From Pseudomonadota bacterium (lineage in GTDB: Bacteria; Pseudomonadota; Alphaproteobacteria; Reyranellales; Reyranellaceae): a stretch of DNA of 64,000 nt. The position numbers and the translations under genes are program-made. This document shows positions 19,922 through 32,307 of the stretch, piece by piece. Location: positions 1 through 64,000 of the forward strand of contig JAFEBU010000053.1 of NCBI GenBank assembly GCA_018242505.1. Direction: 5' to 3'. How positions within the stretch are numbered: the first letter of the stretch is position 1; the number at the start of each line of letters is the position of its first letter. The notes beneath the pieces are model-generated. The model had not been told where the DNA came from and made no database searches. It was given only the letters and a program-made list of their open reading frames with translations.

Positions 19922-20272
19922 ATGAAGCAGGCTACAGCGATTAAGCGGATCGACTCGATGAACTTCGACGAGCTTTTGGCAATCAAGGCCAAGGTCGAAG
20001 CGGCGATCGATGCTCGAATTGGCGAGGAGCGCCGCCGGCTGGAGGCATCCCTCAAGCGGCTCGATAAGATCTCTGCGTCGGTAAAGGCAGATGGCCGAAC
20101 GCCGAAACCCCGGAATGGCGTTACGAAGCGCACCTTGGCCCCAAAATACCGCAACCCGGCCAACCCAAAAGAAACCTGGGCAGGTCGTGGCAATCGCCCG
20201 CGCTGGCTTGTCGCCGCTCTGAAAGGCGGCAAGAAGAAGCTGGCTGACTTTACGGTCGCCCGGCATCAGTAG
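19922..20272 (+). CDS. H-NS-family nucleoid protein
   Basis: The 116-residue protein has an N-terminal coiled coil for dimerisation (MNFDELLAIKAKVEAAIDA). The C-terminal H-NS DNA-binding core is KYRNPANPKETWAGRGNRPRW. The AT-hook-like loop, usually written TWSGRGR-PRW, is intact. Such proteins silence AT-rich foreign DNA; one lying among phage remnants may have arrived with, or control, acquired DNA. The start is ATG 19922, with an alternative at 19958 (MNFDEL). It appears to be a single-gene unit. Confidence 0.85.
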   Translation: MKQATAIKRIDSMNFDELLAIKAKVEAAIDARIGEERRRLEASLKRLDKISASVKADGRTPKPRNGVTKRTLAPKYRNPANPKETWAGRGNRPRWLVAALKGGKKKLADFTVARHQ

Positions 20273-20915: not shown

Positions 20916-21458
20916 CTATCCGTTGCCGGGCAACTGTCCGCTTGGGGTGAGCTTGTTAATGAACTCCGGCAGATGCTGGCTAAGGCTTGCAAGCAACTCC
21001 TGGCCCGACAGTCCAGATTGGGCGGCCAGCGCATCGATCTTGTCGGAACCGATGACCTTTGCCAGGTCGGTCGGCGCAATCGACTGATTGGTGCCGGTGC
21101 CGATCCACGAATTGACCGTCTCGCCGTGCCCGGCTTGCTCGAACTGCCGAATAAGATCGCTTAAGCCTGTGCCCAGCGCGCTTGCGCCACTCTCGCCGGA
21201 CAGCAATCCGCCGAGTCCTCCTTTCATCAAGCCCTCGAGGCCGCCGCCCATGCCGAGCAATCCGCCCAGCAGGCCTCCGGTTGGAGCCTCGCCGCCGGTC
21301 GCTGCCTGCGGCTGACCGGCACCGACCGCCTTGCCGGCGACCAGCCCCAGAAGTGCCAACATGACTGGAGAAAGTCCGGAGCCGCTCGCTTCGCCAGCCG
21401 CTGCCGGTTGGCCGCTCGACCCAGCCTGCAACTCGTTCAGAATATCCATCAACGCCAT
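20916..21458 (-). CDS. YidB-family (DUF937) protein
   Basis: The 180-residue protein starts MALMDILNELQAG behind a perfect GGAGGACAAT ribosome-binding site (ATG at 21458). A glycine/alanine-rich low-complexity middle (GGLLGGLLGMGGGLEGLMKG) is followed by the YidB-type helical domain: LIRQFEQAGHGETVNSWIG, DLAKVIGSDKIDALAAQ, SGLSGQELLASLSQHLPEFI. The family is widespread and uncharacterised. Its last ~90 residues are nearly repeated by the adjacent gene at 21536, indicating tandem duplication followed by loss or gain of the glycine-rich part. Confidence 0.85.
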   Translation of the reverse strand: MALMDILNELQAGSSGQPAAAGEASGSGLSPVMLALLGLVAGKAVGAGQPQAATGGEAPTGGLLGGLLGMGGGLEGLMKGGLGGLLSGESGASALGTGLSDLIRQFEQAGHGETVNSWIGTGTNQSIAPTDLAKVIGSDKIDALAAQSGLSGQELLASLSQHLPEFINKLTPSGQLPGNG

Positions 21459-21535
21459 ATTGTCCTCCTGCCTTGCTTCGGCACTGCTTGATGTCCCCAC
21501 ATCCGCCCGTATGAGGCATTCCGGCGGTGTGGACG

Positions 21536-21817
21536 CTATTTGTTGCCGGGCAGCTGCCCGTTCGGAGTGATCTTGCTTATGAATTCCGGCAAATGCCGGC
21601 TGAGGCCTGCAAGCAGGTCCTCACGTGACAGTCCGGCGTATTCGGCCAGTGCATCGATCTTCTCGGAACCGACGACCTTTGCCAGGTCGGCCGGCGCAAT
21701 CTCCTGCCAGGCGTCGCTGCCGATCCACGAATTGATCGCATCGCCATGTCCGGCCTGTTCGAACCGTCGAACGAAGTCACTCAAACCTTTGTCCAACAGG
21801 ATGTCCAGGAAGCCCAT
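21536..21817 (-). CDS. Short YidB-like (DUF937) protein
   Basis: The 93-residue product from ATG 21817 (GGGAGGGCGCT before it) reads MGFLDILLDKGLSDFVRRFE, QAGHGDAINSWIGSD, APADLAKVVGSEKIDALAEY, ending PNGQLPGNK. It is a compact version of the gene at 20916, sharing the C-terminal domain down to the 'GQLPGN' end. It sits 77 bp upstream in the same direction. Its function is unknown. The absence of the glycine-rich spacer suggests that the conserved domain is the functional unit. Confidence 0.8.
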   Translation of the reverse strand: MGFLDILLDKGLSDFVRRFEQAGHGDAINSWIGSDAWQEIAPADLAKVVGSEKIDALAEYAGLSREDLLAGLSRHLPEFISKITPNGQLPGNK

Positions 21818-21874
21818 AGCGCCCTCCCTGCCGTGGCTCGGCAAGACCATCACTCGATATGGCGTTCTCGCGGA

Positions 21875-22867: not shown

Positions 22868-23290
22868 TCAGTTTCTTGCCTTCAGAAGATCGCGGATCTC
22901 TGTCAGGAGCATCTGCTCCTTCGACGGGGGAGGAGGTGGAGGCGGAGCCTCCTCTGCCTTCCGCGAGAGGCGATTGAGGCCGCGCACCACGAGGAAGAGC
23001 ACCCAGGCGATGAGGAGGAAATTCACCGTGACGGTGATGAAGGTCCCGTAGCCCAGCGTGGCCCCTGCCTTTTTGGCAGCTTCATAGGTGGCCGCCTGGC
23101 TGGAGGCCGATGTGAGACCGATGAAGTAGTTGGAGAAGTCGAGCCCGCCGAAGATCCAGCCGATTAGCGGCATGATTATGTCGTCGACGAGCGAAGACAC
23201 GATCTTACCGAAGGCCGCACCGATGATCACGCCGATGGCAAGATCGACAACGTTGCCACGCATCGCGAATTTTTTGAACTCTTCCAGCAC
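22868..23290 (-). CDS. mscL: Large-conductance mechanosensitive channel
   Basis: The 140-residue protein is a full-length MscL. It has the N-terminal amphipathic helix [22 protein letters not shown]1 [20 protein letters not shown], a periplasmic loop, and TM2 [21 protein letters not shown] proline-rich stretch (PPPPPPP) and the C-terminal helix [13 protein letters not shown] follow. It forms a homopentamer that opens under membrane tension to release solutes during osmotic downshock. It is probably the first gene of the leftward envelope cluster. The proline run before the C-terminal helix is longer than usual but lies in a variable linker. Confidence 0.95.
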
Positions 23291-23492: not shown

Positions 23493-24584
23493 TTGGAGCG
23501 ATTGATCGACCTTGGCGCTGAGCTGCTGTCGACCGTAGAAGCCGACGTCTTGGGGCTGGCCGTTGTCGGAGCGGACAGAACCATTCAGTGCAAGGTTGGA
23601 CGCCTGGTCGATTGGCTCCCGCCGATCGGCGGGGACTGTTGCCAGTGTATACTTCTGGTCGGGATGGAGGCGGAGCTGGCCGCCCTGGCTGAAGGTAAGC
23701 GGAGCATAATCGCTCTGTCGGGCATACGCGGCGCGTCGTCCGGGCTGGATCACCCTGTGACGGCTGCCGTGCTCTGGAATATGGAGCGGTCGCATTACAC
23801 CATAGTCGTGGTTCCCGATTTCGCAGCCCGCCAAGTCGAGATTCTCCTCGGAACCGAGCGCCGTGCCCGGCGCGTGATGGAGCAGCAACTTGAAGCGGCG
23901 AATTCGGAGGTACGGTTCGCCTCGCTTGCGCGAACGCGCCTTCGCTTGGCGCGCGATCTTCATGACACGCTTGCGCATTCGATTGTCGCGCTCCTGATCC
24001 AGATCCGGATGATCCGGCACTTCCTGTCGACCGACCGGGAGCGCGTCTCCGAGGGCTTGGCGGCGGCGGAGGAAGCGGCTGTCAGCGGATTGGCGCGTGT
24101 ACGCGATGCCATTGCTCGTCTCAGAATGCCCGACGAGCTCGATGTCGCCCCAGATGTCGAGGGAATGCTGTCCGACTTTTCGGAGCGGACCGGCATCGAG
24201 GTCTCGGTACATATCGGCGAGGGAGCCTCGGACGGGCTGCGCACCCATGGTGTGACGGTTCAGCGCATTCTCGGCGAGACATTGCGCAACGTCGAGGCGC
24301 ACGCGAAGGCGCGACATGTCCGGTTTCATGCGGCCGAGAGTGACAAGAGGCTGATTGTCGAGATCGGCGACGATGGACGCGGTTTCGACCCGACTGTCGC
24401 CAAGCCCGGCCATTTCGGTCTGATCGGCATGGCTGAGCTCGCCGAGCTCGTCGGCGGAGAGTGCTCTGTTGAGAGCTCGCCCCAGGAGGGCACGCTGGTC
24501 CGTGTGTCATTGCCGGTTACCTTGCCTCAGGCGGTGCCATCCTCGAACACTCTCTCAGATGCCGGTGCGGGGGCGGGGGGATGA
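23493..24584 (+). CDS. Sensor histidine kinase, NarL/LiaS type (soluble)
   Basis: The HisKA_3 dimerisation box RDLHDTLAHSI has the phospho-acceptor His157. It is followed by a GHKL ATPase domain (GETLRNVEAHAKARHV, GDDGRGFD, GHFGLIGMAELAELVGG). The N-terminal ~120 residues look like a PAS/GAF-type sensor with no transmembrane segment and a cysteine cluster (GDCCQC, residues 47-52, plus Cys33) that could bind metal or sense redox. The start is a TTG at 23493, after GGGAG; an upstream in-frame stop rules out a longer protein. It overlaps the response-regulator gene by four bases. Confidence 0.9.
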   Translation: MERLIDLGAELLSTVEADVLGLAVVGADRTIQCKVGRLVDWLPPIGGDCCQCILLVGMEAELAALAEGKRSIIALSGIRGASSGLDHPVTAAVLWNMERSHYTIVVVPDFAARQVEILLGTERRARRVMEQQLEAANSEVRFASLARTRLRLARDLHDTLAHSIVALLIQIRMIRHFLSTDRERVSEGLAAAEEAAVSGLARVRDAIARLRMPDELDVAPDVEGMLSDFSERTGIEVSVHIGEGASDGLRTHGVTVQRILGETLRNVEAHAKARHVRFHAAESDKRLIVEIGDDGRGFDPTVAKPGHFGLIGMAELAELVGGECSVESSPQEGTLVRVSLPVTLPQAVPSSNTLSDAGAGAGG

Positions 24585-25249
24585 CGGAGCCGCGCCGGCA
24601 AGGCAAAAGGATCCGTGTGCTGATCGCGGAAGATCAGGCGTTGATCCGGGAAGCGCTGGCGACGCTCCTCGCCCAGCAGAACGGCGACTTCGAGGTCCTG
24701 AAAGGCGCGGCCGACGGGGAGCAGGCGATCGAGTATGCGCGCCGATATCGACCTGATGTCGTTCTGATGGATCTGCAGATGCCGCGTCTCGATGGCATTA
24801 GGGCGACCCAGCGGATTCTTCGCGAGTTCCCGACGACGAGCATCGTGGTCTTGACCACCTTCGAGGCGGACGACCTGATCTTCGATGCTGTCAGTGCCGG
24901 CGCGAAGGCTTATCTCTTGAAAGACGCCAGGATCGAGGAAATCGCAGCGACCATCCGGGCGGTAACGAACGGTCAAGCCGCGCTCTCGGCGAGCGTGGCT
25001 GCGCGAATTCTCGACGAGTTCAAACGGTTGCGTCCGCGGCGCGCATCGGCGAGCCAGGCGGTTGGCGAAAGCTTGACTGAGCGGGAGAACGAGATTCTCC
25101 AGTTCATCATGGAAGGCAAGAGCAACAGCGAGATCGCCAAACAGCTTCACCTGGCCGAGGGTACGGTAAAGAACTACGTGAGCACGATCCTGAGAAAGTG
25201 TGAGGTGAGGAATCGGACGGAGTTGGCCATAAAGACCATAGCCCAGTAG
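24581..25249 (+). CDS. NarL/FixJ-family response regulator
   Basis: The 222-residue protein has a receiver domain (VLIAEDQALIREAL; phospho-acceptor Asp64 in VLMDLQMPRLDG; the conserved Lys in AYLLKDA). A LuxR-type helix-turn-helix follows (LTERENEILQFIMEGKSNSE, EGTVKNYVSTILRK). The ATGA overlap with the kinase gene makes this a cognate pair. It is followed after 16 bp by the coiled-coil/OmpA/GTPase genes in the same direction, so it either regulates them or shares their transcript. Confidence 0.93.
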   Translation: MTEPRRQGKRIRVLIAEDQALIREALATLLAQQNGDFEVLKGAADGEQAIEYARRYRPDVVLMDLQMPRLDGIRATQRILREFPTTSIVVLTTFEADDLIFDAVSAGAKAYLLKDARIEEIAATIRAVTNGQAALSASVAARILDEFKRLRPRRASASQAVGESLTERENEILQFIMEGKSNSEIAKQLHLAEGTVKNYVSTILRKCEVRNRTELAIKTIAQ

Positions 25250-25265
25250 GGAGAACGAGTGGGGA

Positions 25266-25622
25266 ATGACGATGAAAGGCAACGAGCACACTGAAAGAGG
25301 CCCAGCCAGAGCGGCTTTGGCCAGTGGACCGGAAGAGGCAGTGCCTTCCGAGGCGACAATCGATCAGGTCCGTGAACTTCTGTTTGGCGGAGCTCAGCGG
25401 TCGATCCAAAGCAGCCTGTCGGGTCTACGCGAAGAGATGGAGACTTCACTCAAGAAGCTCCAGGCGGAATTCTCAAAGGAGCTGGCAGCTCTCCATGCGA
25501 AGGTATCGGAGCTTGAGCGAGATACGGAGCAGAAGCGACTGGCTGCGCAGAGAGACATAGGGGCCGCGATCTCGGAGCTTGGCACCAGCATCACCAGAAT
25601 GGGCTCCAGCCGTACAGGGTAA
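25266..25622 (+). CDS. Coiled-coil protein of the OmpA/GTPase module
   Basis: The 118-residue hydrophilic protein has an N-terminal disordered stretch and a segment DQVRELLFGGAQRSIQSSL. A long heptad-rich helix follows (LREEMETSLKKLQAEFSKEL, LHAKVSELERDTEQKRLAA). It has no signal or membrane segment. It starts 16 bp after the response regulator, with GGGGA before the ATG, and ends 4 bp before the OmpA-domain gene's ATG. The 'RELLFG' plus coiled-coil layout occurs in partner proteins of such modules, and by position it should contact either the cytoplasmic half of the membrane protein or the GTPase. Function is inferred only. Confidence 0.65.
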   Translation: MTMKGNEHTERGPARAALASGPEEAVPSEATIDQVRELLFGGAQRSIQSSLSGLREEMETSLKKLQAEFSKELAALHAKVSELERDTEQKRLAAQRDIGAAISELGTSITRMGSSRTG

Positions 25623-25626
25623 TGGT

Positions 25627-27309
25627 ATGACGTCTGCCGCCCGCCAGAACCGCGAAATCGAGCAGCTCAAGACGATGCTCTTTCAAACGGAGACGGCGCG
25701 TCTTGCGACGATGGAAACGGATGTCGCTTCCCTTCAGCGATACGTAGGCAGTGCCGCCCGCCTCGAGGTTGCAACAGCAGACGTCCTGGTCGCCGCCCTG
25801 GAGCGTGCGGAAGTCGATCGACCACGCGAGTTGGCGAATGCCATCGCACCCACCGTCGTCTCTGTGATCAGGAGCGAGATCAGGAATTCGCGTGACCTGA
25901 TGGTCGATGCGCTCTACCCGATCACTGGACGGCTGGTGAGTGCAGCGGTGGCGAATGCCTTCAAGGAGCTGATTGCGCTCCTGGAGCAGCGCCTCAATGC
26001 CCTGACGTCGACGGAGCTTTGGGTCGGGCGTGTCAAGTCGCTGGTGACCGGCCGCCCGATTAGTGAGTTCGTACTGGCGGATAGCCCGCCGCGGGTCGAA
26101 CGGCTGCTCATGATCGAACGTGGCAGTGGGCGCCTCGTCGCGGATTGGACGCACGAGGCGAGCCCCGACAACCGTGCGGACTTGCTCAGCGCGATGGTCG
26201 CGGCAATTCTGGAATTCTCCGTGCAAGCACTGGCCGAAGAAGGCAATTTGCAGAAGCTCGACTTCGGTGGACGGGAACTGGTGCTTCGCGCGTCACCTCG
26301 GTTCATCCTCGCGGCGGAATGCGTCGGTCCCTTGCGGCCCGCTGACGACTCCAGGATCAATGCCCTTTTCTTCGATACGATCGAAAGTATGGATCGCGGC
26401 TCAGCCTGCGATAGCGCTGCGCTGGCGTCGCTGGCGACCTCCATCGAAGCCGATCCGCGCTCCCGCAAGAAGGGGAACCGGGGAGGACGGGCTGCGCTGC
26501 TTGTGCTCGCTGGTCTGGCGATCGCTTTGCTCGGCTGGTGGGCCGTGTTGTCCGTGACCCGCACGATGCTGGAGCGGCGGGCGACCGCGGCGCTGCAGCA
26601 GCTCGCCGACGAGCAACCCTCGCTGACATCGTTTCCGTTGCGCCTGGACTTCGATCATCCTGGTCGGAGCCTCACGGTCCGGGGAATCGAGCCGAGCCAG
26701 GTGAATATCGCGGCTGTGATGGATGCGCTGGCCAAGGCTGCCGCGCCCTACCGGATCATTGACCGCATCGGCGTCGTGCCGGGGCTGGAACAGTGGACCG
26801 CCTCGCGCACCGATGCCGCTGCCACGCAGCAGTCGCTCGCACGCCTGCAGGCAAGTCTCGACGAGGTGCACAAGGCGATTGCGGAGGAAGCGAGATCCAG
26901 AAGCCAGCAATATGCCAAGCTGCAGTCGACCGTCGATAGCCCGGCGGAGCGCCTAAGTCGCTTCATGGCCTCGACGGCGATCTTCTTCGGCATTGACGAC
27001 GAATTTACCGACAGGGAGGAAGCCGATCGGCAGATTCGGCAGCTTGCGGCGTTGCTTGAGAACAACGATTTGGAGGTCCGTGTCGTCGGATACACAGACG
27101 ACACCGGATCGGAGGCCGGCAACAGAGCGCTCGCCCGCCGAAGAGCAGAGGTGGTCGTGCAGAAACTGACCGCCCTCGGGATCGAGCCTTCGCGATTGCT
27201 CGTCGTCTCGCGCGCAGCGTCGATGCCAATCTCCGACAAGACCGGGCCGAATGACGGCAATCGCCGGGTCACCTTCGAGAACGTGTTTCGTGGCGAACCC
27301 ACGCGATGA
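25627..27309 (+). CDS. Membrane-spanning protein with cytoplasmic domain, BON-like region and periplasmic OmpA domain
   Basis: The 560-residue protein has an N-terminal helical part (1-125) and a cytoplasmic alpha/beta region (about 130-285; VERLLMIERGSGRLVADWTH). One transmembrane helix follows at 288-311 (AALLVLAGLAIALLGWWAVL). The periplasmic part has a BON-like segment (about 320-385; DFDHPGRSLTVRGIEPSQVN), a short coiled coil and a C-terminal OmpA domain (445-555) with the peptidoglycan-binding pattern YTDDTGSEAGNRALARRRAE and NRRVTF. It therefore links cytoplasm to cell wall. It has no signal peptide, unlike outer-membrane OmpA. It overlaps the GTPase gene by ATGA (27306-27309), so the GTPase is its obvious cytoplasmic partner. 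Confidence 0.85.
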   Translation: MTSAARQNREIEQLKTMLFQTETARLATMETDVASLQRYVGSAARLEVATADVLVAALERAEVDRPRELANAIAPTVVSVIRSEIRNSRDLMVDALYPITGRLVSAAVANAFKELIALLEQRLNALTSTELWVGRVKSLVTGRPISEFVLADSPPRVERLLMIERGSGRLVADWTHEASPDNRADLLSAMVAAILEFSVQALAEEGNLQKLDFGGRELVLRASPRFILAAECVGPLRPADDSRINALFFDTIESMDRGSACDSAALASLATSIEADPRSRKKGNRGGRAALLVLAGLAIALLGWWAVLSVTRTMLERRATAALQQLADEQPSLTSFPLRLDFDHPGRSLTVRGIEPSQVNIAAVMDALAKAAAPYRIIDRIGVVPGLEQWTASRTDAAATQQSLARLQASLDEVHKAIAEEARSRSQQYAKLQSTVDSPAERLSRFMASTAIFFGIDDEFTDREEADRQIRQLAALLENNDLEVRVVGYTDDTGSEAGNRALARRRAEVVVQKLTALGIEPSRLLVVSRAASMPISDKTGPNDGNRRVTFENVFRGEPTR

Positions 27310-27815
27310 TGCTTACGGCGAAAGTCATGCTGCTCGGCGACATGGGGGTCGGTAAGACATCGATCCTGTACCGCCTCGTGCATGACCGCTTCGATGGCCA
27401 ATACAAGACGACGCTCGGCGTCGAGGTACTCAGCTACGACGTTCCGATCGACGCGGTCGGCGGGGGCGAGCCGACTCGTCTCGTACTCTGGGACACCGAT
27501 GGCGATTTCGGGACACGCATCTTCGAGACCGTCTACATCATGGGCGCTTCGGCTGCGATCATCGTGTCTGACGTCACGCGGCCGCAGACGGTCCCGCGCA
27601 TGGTCGAGTTCGCTCGCGGCTTTGAGGCGAGGTTCCCGGGAAGACCTTACAAGGCGCTCGTGAACAAGATCGATCTCGCAAAGTCGGTGGGCAGTGTTGG
27701 CCCGATCGGCGAACTCACCCCTTCGAATGTCAACTACGTGAGCGCGAAGACCGGTGACGGGATTGCAGAATCCTTCGCCGAGCTCGCGGAGACAATCCGT
27801 CGCCGGCAGCTCTAG
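27306..27815 (+). CDS. Ras/Rab-like small GTPase
   Basis: The 169-residue protein carries all five G motifs: G1 GDMGVGKTS (11-19), G2 KTTLGVEV (34-41, Thr36), G3 WDTDG (62-66), G4 NKID (120-123) and G5 SAK (146-148). The arrangement is that of eukaryotic-like Rab/Ras domains. Position 67, where Ras has catalytic Gln61, is Asp, and the preceding Ala is Asp65, so intrinsic GTP hydrolysis may be slow or GAP-dependent. It has no C-terminal cysteine for prenylation. The start at 27306 overlaps the OmpA-domain gene's stop. It belongs with prokaryotic Ras-superfamily proteins of unknown function rather than MglA, by my reading of the motifs. Confidence 0.88.
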   Translation: MMLTAKVMLLGDMGVGKTSILYRLVHDRFDGQYKTTLGVEVLSYDVPIDAVGGGEPTRLVLWDTDGDFGTRIFETVYIMGASAAIIVSDVTRPQTVPRMVEFARGFEARFPGRPYKALVNKIDLAKSVGSVGPIGELTPSNVNYVSAKTGDGIAESFAELAETIRRRQL

Positions 27816-29094
27816 GCAAGCGGTCTGGCGCTCCTCTGCCCACATGGGCGGAATTCGCAAACGTCTGGTCGGAAGCCTGGTCGGCGTCGGTCTCTCCCAA
27901 GGTAGCCTGCCGCAGCAGCGAGGCGACTTTTTCGATCCATACCCTTCATGCCGGAGGCATGATGGCTTGCTCGGGTTGTCCACGATGGGTGTGGGGCAGG
28001 GGGAGGCATGGTCAAGTAAGCGCGACACTGATGACGTGAAAGAGATTACTTTCTGCACGTTGCACCATCGCCTGTGCAATGCAAATCGGTAGGCTGCTCG
28101 TGTCCGTCGCGGGCCTGTGGTGGACAGCTGGGCGGGCGCGGCTGCTACAATCCCGTGAAGCCACTGCAGGCCCGCCAGTGGTCTCATCTCTTCCTGAAGC
28201 CTTCATCTCTTCTTAGGCCCCTCATCTCTTCTTGGAGCCCCTCATCTCTTCTTGGAACTGCGTGTTCCTCGCGCCATCAACTGTGGCTCGATAGCCGCTG
28301 CATGCGATTGAAGTGGGCGATCTTCCCGTACTTGCCGCAGTGTGTCTTGGCGAGGGAAAGAGCATCGGCCTCGTCCACATGTTCGAGATGGTGACATGTG
28401 CGGCATTGTCGGTGACGCCGTGGCCGAACCCGCTGGAGCAGGCCCGGTCGGCGTTGTTCGTGCCGCGCGCTCCTTGCTCGAACGCGACATGCAAACGACC
28501 GCTCGATGCATCTACACACCCCCTGTTTGCCGGGAGAGGAGGGGTGCAACGTGGAAATCGACCGTTACGTGTGATGATCAATTCCATGCGTGTTGGCGCG
28601 TGCTCGTGTTCCTCTCTGTTCCGTGAGTGCGCACGAGCGTACGGGGGCTGGCATGAGTTCACCGGGGGGGATTGCGGAGCGAGCGTGCATCGTGAGGTTC
28701 GGAATTTTTATTGGAAAGCCCGCAAGGCCGAGCACCTCTGCCGGGGTGCCCCTCGGCGCACCCACTGGCGGGCCAGCAGTGGCGACGGGAGAGAGGGAGA
28801 GCAGGCCTGCCCTGTTCGAGGTGCATTTCAGCACTGCTCGATCCACCACACACTAAGGCCCGCAGCAGGCCCGCTCGGTCTATCCATTCACATGGCACAA
28901 ACCGATCCGCTATGTGCCGAAAGTCACTTTTTGCGACAACAATACGTAGCCCGCTGTTCTGCTTCCGCTTCGCTTTTCCACGTTCCCTACATGCGCAGGC
29001 GGCCATTCACTGTTGACCGGAATGAAGTCTTGCGGCGCAGGGGACCGATGGCCAAGGGAACCGAGCGGCCGCACGGTCCGCCCGGATGCACGGC
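27816..29094. other. 1.28-kb gene-poor stretch
   Basis: No convincing gene is visible. Long open frames exist on both strands, but their translations are Cys/Arg/Pro-rich low-quality sequence without domains. On the minus strand near 28270-28400, a short stretch (DEADALSLAKTHCGKYGKIA, then HFNRMQ) resembles the conserved end of small lipoprotein-like proteins. That hints at a decayed gene, but the frame is broken. A 19-20-bp tandem repeat lies at 28183-28257 (listed separately). The stretch separates the GTPase module from the convergent autotransporter gene. Confidence 0.6.
28183..28257. repeat. Four tandem copies of a 19-20-bp repeat
   Basis: The unit CTCATCTCTTCTTGGAGCC occurs four times in a row (starting near 28183, 28202, 28221 and 28241), with small changes (TTCCTGAAG, TTCTTAGG, TTCTTGGAG, TTCTTGGAA). 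It is pyrimidine rich on the plus strand. It lies in non-coding sequence. Possible origins are slippage duplication or an array of protein-binding sites. Confidence 0.8.

Positions 29095-32307
<3,213 letters not shown>

Follow-up and report, generated by a model that had tools for sequence, protein, structure and literature searches.

Gene organization of the locus

The window, meaning the whole stretch of 64,000 nucleotides that was analyzed, holds a same-strand run of five genes within 4.3 kb, which encode, in this order, a histidine kinase (HK), a NarL-type response regulator (RR), a coiled-coil protein (CC), a trans-envelope OmpA protein and a small GTPase. The genes and the features that lie within them are the following:

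23493..24584, + strand, histidine kinase (HK), 363 aa, soluble; TTG start; PAS, HisKA_3 and HATPase_c domains
23544..23933, + strand, PAS domain of the kinase with its signaling helix (about aa 18-147); common to the outputs of other Rup loci
23853..23855, + strand, codon of Thr121 of the kinase, at the site where a Gln was published as invariant in Rup outputs
24581..25249, + strand, NarL-type response regulator (RR), 222 aa
25266..25622, + strand, coiled-coil protein (CC), 118 aa
25359..25406, + strand, N-terminal motif of CC, IDQVRELLFGG..., which resembles the opening motif of the OmpA protein
25627..27309, + strand, trans-envelope OmpA protein, 560 aa; helical N-terminus, predicted roadblock/longin-type domain, one transmembrane (TM) segment and periplasmic OmpA domain
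25657..25704, + strand, N-terminal motif of the OmpA protein, IEQLKTMLFQ..., which resembles the CC motif
26086..26394, + strand, predicted roadblock/longin domain of the OmpA protein (aa 154-256), described in 2014 as a "conserved domain of unknown function"
26482..26544, + strand, single TM segment, about aa 286-306, preceded by the basic stretch RSRKKGNRGGR
27016..27261, + strand, OmpA domain, aa 464-545; the TDDTGS...N...RRRA signature is kept
27306..27815, + strand, Rab-like GTPase (Rup family) of 169 aa, whose gene overlaps that of the OmpA protein by ATGA
27489..27509, + strand, G3 motif WDTDGDF of the GTPase, which has the Asp that distinguishes Rup from MglA and lacks the catalytic Gln

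The reading frames of HK and RR also meet in an ATGA overlap, a gap of 16 bp separates RR from the CC gene, and 4 bp lie between the latter and the gene of the OmpA protein. For HK, an in-frame TTG at 23502 is an alternative start that is equally compatible with the homologues. Pfam searches gave Response_reg (4.3e-26) and GerE for RR, HisKA_3 (1.1e-12) and HATPase_c for HK, OmpA (4e-15) for the OmpA protein and Ras (3.2e-20) for the GTPase. The gene spacing, the G motifs and the single TM segment claimed in the original prediction were all re-found, together with their coordinates. A scan for promoters and terminators gave no signal above chance. Adjoining the kinase gene, and divergent from it, is mscL (22868-23290, - strand), which encodes a mechanosensitive channel (Pfam 1.3e-46).

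The GTPase and the conservation of the gene order

The G motifs of the GTPase are GDMGVGKTS, WDTDGDF, VNKIDL and VSAKTG, its nearest solved relatives are Ypt7, Sec4 and Rab7, and it has no C-terminal prenylation cysteine. In a tree that includes five MglA proteins and two yeast Rabs, in which some branches are long and a Nostoc homologue stands in place of the 2014 reference set, the Rup sequences form a single clade (100/100). The GTPase of the window is a Rup protein on each of the traits tested, namely the presence of the G3 Asp, the absence of the G3 Gln and a clade apart from MglA.

A scan of species genomes seeded with the GTPase returned 73 loci, mostly from Mesorhizobium, Bradyrhizobium, Methylocystis, Methylobacterium and relatives. 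By a strict count, the gene of the OmpA protein lies directly upstream of that of the GTPase in 64 of the 71 loci with enough upstream sequence. Four of the misses (L051, L060, L095 and L097) are start-site artefacts and a fifth (L076) is a contig edge, which brings the corrected count of loci where the two genes adjoin to 69 of 71; the true exceptions are L090 and L091, where the GTPase has no adjoining OmpA-protein gene. Among loci seeded with the OmpA protein, the GTPase is found directly downstream in 23 of 24 and the CC gene upstream in 24 of 24. The order CC-OmpA protein-GTPase is near-universal, and an arrangement of three families that recurs unchanged in almost all loci examined is more than chance. 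These counts refute a rare adjacency of the families in other genomes, and the recurrent order bears out the earlier view of the three genes as a coupled module, which is conserved. The order is also present on a Nostoc plasmid and on Mesorhizobium pWSM1497, there followed by an adenylate/guanylate cyclase. Genes in which the GTPase is fused to the platform or to an output were absent among the loci, and no other recurrent neighbor of the module stood out in those listed.

The occurrence of the module is patchy. A match was obtained in 46 of the 299 genomes of a phylum sample, and in the taxonomic order of the window 4 of 76 genomes have any match, the genome of the window having both types and the three others the lower-scoring kind; the other 75 genomes of this order are without a module of the window type. 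The nearest relatives of the GTPase (82-83% identity) are found in Chelativorans and Rhizobium. It is likely that the module of the window (23493-27815) was acquired by horizontal transfer, although base composition gives no decisive sign of a recent one. Most genomes of the class also have matches to OmpA only; these come from unrelated OmpA proteins and were disregarded.

The genome of the window has, outside the window itself, another complete Rup module (contig C8, about 94400-98800; L106:4434-8784). It consists of CC, OmpA protein, a GTPase with the motif WDLAGED and an adenylate cyclase, the PAS domain of which has kept the Gln that is replaced in the kinase of the window.

Topology and predicted fold of the OmpA protein

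The N-terminus of the OmpA protein is placed in the cytoplasm (N-in) because the basic stretch precedes the TM segment. An AlphaFold2 model of aa 1-285 was built as a single chain from 36 sequences, with a folding alignment that was taken from our own loci only and from which two rows from plasmid records were left out. The model shows a helical N-terminus followed by a b-b-a-b-b-b-a succession at aa 154-256, the blocks of which mostly have pLDDT values of 82-96, while the pTM of the whole model, long helices included, is 0.53. In a Foldseek comparison with the PDB, all 50 matches listed belong to the roadblock/longin superfamily (probability 1.00, E about 5e-4 to 5e-3), including those entries described by the name of a complex only, which we take to be members of this family. 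The matches listed include Ragulator/LAMTOR, zeta-COP, the C-terminal domains of Rag proteins, Mon1-Ccz1 and MglB, as well as sigma subunits of adaptors, Asgard roadblocks, and axonemal and dynein roadblock chains. This is not a generic a/b artefact, because the same pipeline applied to the N-terminus of the kinase returns PAS-type proteins.

Detection of the platform from sequence only is marginal. Robl_LC7 is not among the 25 Pfam families listed for the 38 members searched, the PDB profile comparison gave as its best non-coiled matches a roadblock protein (E 0.076) and TRAPP BET5 (E 0.77), and in an hhalign comparison with 30 sequences obtained through Robl_LC7, 68 columns align co-linearly with a P of 0.0099 and a probability of 4%. 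It is therefore the predicted fold that carries the claim, and from the model the cytoplasmic domain of the OmpA protein is predicted to be a roadblock/longin domain. A separate classical MglB partner elsewhere in the genome was also considered and rejected, the search of the genome with Robl_LC7 being negative. No paper that ties the roadblock/longin fold to the OmpA protein was found in the open-access literature. Dimers of roadblock/longin domains are known to serve as platforms for GTPases, in an orientation that prokaryotes and eukaryotes have in common (PMC10933270). The predicted presence of such a fold in the cytoplasmic half of the OmpA protein therefore makes an interaction of this protein with the GTPase more likely.

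The helical N-terminus of the OmpA protein opens with the motif that has its twin in CC. With the patterns IDQVRELLFG for CC and IEQLKTLLFQxExxRL for the OmpA protein, the motif is found in 99 of 127 CC and in 119 of 132 OmpA-protein sequences, versus 82 of 2231 background ORFs, a contrast that is approximate given that the search windows differ. This suggests that the two proteins may form a hetero-coiled coil or have a binding partner in common.

The kinase and the PAS domain shared by Rup outputs

From its model, the N-terminal domain of the kinase is predicted to be of PAS type, with a signaling helix at the C-terminal end. The domain is also present in the outputs that adjoin the GTPase at other loci, which are histidine kinases, a Nostoc hybrid kinase, adenylate cyclases and a GGDEF-EAL protein; the most distant of these were recognized by position and alignment, not by profile. 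Given that the PAS domain recurs in this way, the kinase/regulator pair belongs to the system. The original prediction had correctly located the pair 16 bp upstream of the three genes, but its treatment of the pair as a mere neighbor does not hold.

According to our own alignment, the Gln published as invariant in Rup outputs maps to the start of the helix that leaves the PAS domain. In one set, 17 of 52 outputs have this Gln, as do all 8 of a further, diverse group, while every output of the HisKA_3/NarL branch (35/35) has T, S, A, R or G at this position. On the GTPase tree the loss of Gln amounts to one change, with a support (70/91) that is not strong, and the GTPases of the Gln-bearing and Gln-less branches share the same G3. 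At two loci (L085 and L103) a PAS domain of this kind is missing from the nearby kinase, and at two loci of Methylocystis (L071 and L075) there is a NarL-type regulator only, with no recognizable kinase adjoining the GTPase. The HisKA_3/NarL branch has thus loosened its output, and the link of the module to the two-component system may be loose.

Relation to described systems

In 2014, Wuichet & Sogaard-Andersen described Group 1 Rup GTPases that are encoded beside a coiled-coil protein, a protein composed of an unknown domain, a TM segment and an OmpA domain, and an output enzyme (PMC4316618). The group was defined by tree, taxonomy and neighborhood, and an invariant Gln was reported for the associated output proteins; the GTPases are described as very similar to eukaryotic Rab/Ras, a member from Mesorhizobium loti is mentioned, and no Rup had been experimentally characterized as of that year (PMC4316618). 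The earlier statement that no described system has exactly this composition is therefore wrong, since the composition is that of the Group 1 Rup neighborhood, and a novel composition was rejected for the gene set already catalogued in 2014 (PMC4316618).

The window has in common with Group 1 a Rup GTPase without the G3 Gln, adjoining CC and domain-TM-OmpA genes, and an adjoining output with the shared N-terminal domain. It differs in that the output is a HisKA_3 kinase, which lies upstream together with a NarL-type regulator of its own, whereas the published output is a single enzyme downstream, and in that the invariant Gln is Thr in the kinase. For this last reason the module is filed as a variant of Group 1. 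The unknown domain and the output N-terminus of the published description are predicted here as roadblock/longin and PAS, respectively. With the composition known, what is added here is the near-universal order, its reach to Nostoc, the second copy in the genome of the window, the predicted roadblock/longin and PAS folds, the membership of the kinase and the loss of the Gln.

The roadblock/longin fold acts as a GTPase platform in MglA-MglB, Rag-Ragulator and Rab-TRAPP/Mon1-Ccz1. The window resembles MglA-MglB in having a small GTPase and a partner of predicted roadblock fold, for which MglB is a Foldseek match. However, its GTPase is a Rup, with WDTDGDF and hence the Asp at G3, and its roadblock-type domain is predicted inside a wall-anchored membrane protein and is not detectable as Robl_LC7 by sequence, no Robl_LC7 having been found in the genome. 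The actinobacterial conservon (CvnA-D, mfp) likewise combines a small GTPase, a roadblock fold and a histidine kinase in one operon, but there the kinase (CvnA) is a membrane protein, the roadblock gene (CvnB) is separate, CvnC and an MglA-type GTPase complete the set and a regulator is lacking, whereas the window has a soluble kinase, a regulator, a Rup GTPase and an OmpA anchor, and no separate roadblock gene. Eukaryotic Rag-Ragulator and Rab-TRAPP/Mon1-Ccz1, which are among the top fold matches, similarly pair a Rab-like GTPase with a membrane-tethered domain of roadblock/longin type. In the window, unlike in these platforms, the tether is a TM helix with a wall-binding domain, the outputs are those of bacterial signaling and the prenylation cysteine is absent.

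Proposed mechanism and alternatives

From these observations, it is reasonably probable that the five genes make up a variant Group 1 Rup module, in which a wall-anchored GTPase platform feeds a signaling output. The GTPase would dock on the roadblock/longin platform, on the inner side of the membrane, and CC would pair with the helical N-terminus of the trans-envelope OmpA protein. The nucleotide state of the GTPase would set the activity of the PAS output, and the PAS kinase would in turn phosphorylate the NarL-type regulator, leading to a change in transcription. In other genomes, the same core appears to be connected to outputs that are adenylate cyclases, GGDEF-EAL proteins or hybrid kinases. 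The broader reading, that Rup systems have a roadblock/longin GTPase platform of their own, which is built into a wall-anchored trans-envelope protein and is a bacterial counterpart of the eukaryotic Rab/Rag platforms with modular kinase, cAMP or c-di-GMP outputs, is slightly less probable and stands a little above an even chance.

Other readings of the locus place the emphasis elsewhere. The OmpA protein could sense strain of the wall or membrane from the periplasm, with the GTPase relaying the signal to the soluble kinase, as the trans-envelope topology with a wall-binding OmpA signature, the lack of a TM segment in the kinase (from hydropathy) and the presence of mscL next door in the window would allow. 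Nonetheless, mscL is not a recurrent neighbor in the loci listed and OmpA domains may be anchors only, and this reading is considered unlikely. Somewhat less likely still is a reading in which signaling output is not the main role and, as the original prediction proposed, the GTPase switches the wall-anchored protein for polarity, envelope remodeling or the positioning of a surface organelle. Its partner protein is indeed wall-anchored, and in the literature MglA and its roadblock partner MglB set polarity in Myxococcus, but support did not extend beyond this analogy: among the loci listed, genes for motility, pili or wall synthesis do not recur next to the module, and the conserved extra partner is a signaling enzyme with the shared PAS domain, be it a kinase, an adenylate cyclase or a GGDEF-EAL protein.

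A very improbable reading for the window is that of Wuichet & Sogaard-Andersen (2014), in which the N-terminal domain of the output is a GAP that supplies in trans the catalytic Gln that the GTPase lacks (PMC4316618). A GTPase without its own Gln and the retention of this residue in outputs as diverse as cyclases, kinases and GGDEF-EAL proteins fit this proposal. The system of the window, however, cannot use that Gln in trans because Thr121 replaces it while the G3 is unchanged on both sides, a situation that extends to the whole branch, and the start of the helix leaving a PAS domain is a usual place for signal transfer. That the Gln serves to transfer the PAS signal is no less likely than catalysis in trans, and the Thr121 branch offers itself as a natural test case for a glutamine supplied in trans. 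A roadblock/longin platform in the wall-anchored partner would provide the Rup family with a regulator that is open to testing, and with a specific counterpart of the way in which eukaryotes control Rab and Rag.

Sequences flanking the module

An autotransporter of 1070 aa with PATR repeats (29095-32307, - strand; Pfam Autotransporter 3.5e-62) is encoded downstream of the module. On the other side lies a tandem pair of YidB-like genes (20916-21500 and 21536-21853, - strand); HHH and PsiF-repeat proteins are encoded close by, as is an H-NS-type protein (19922-20272). The non-coding stretch past the GTPase gene contains, at 28179-28256, four tandem copies of a repeat of 19-20 nt (CTCATCTCTTC...).
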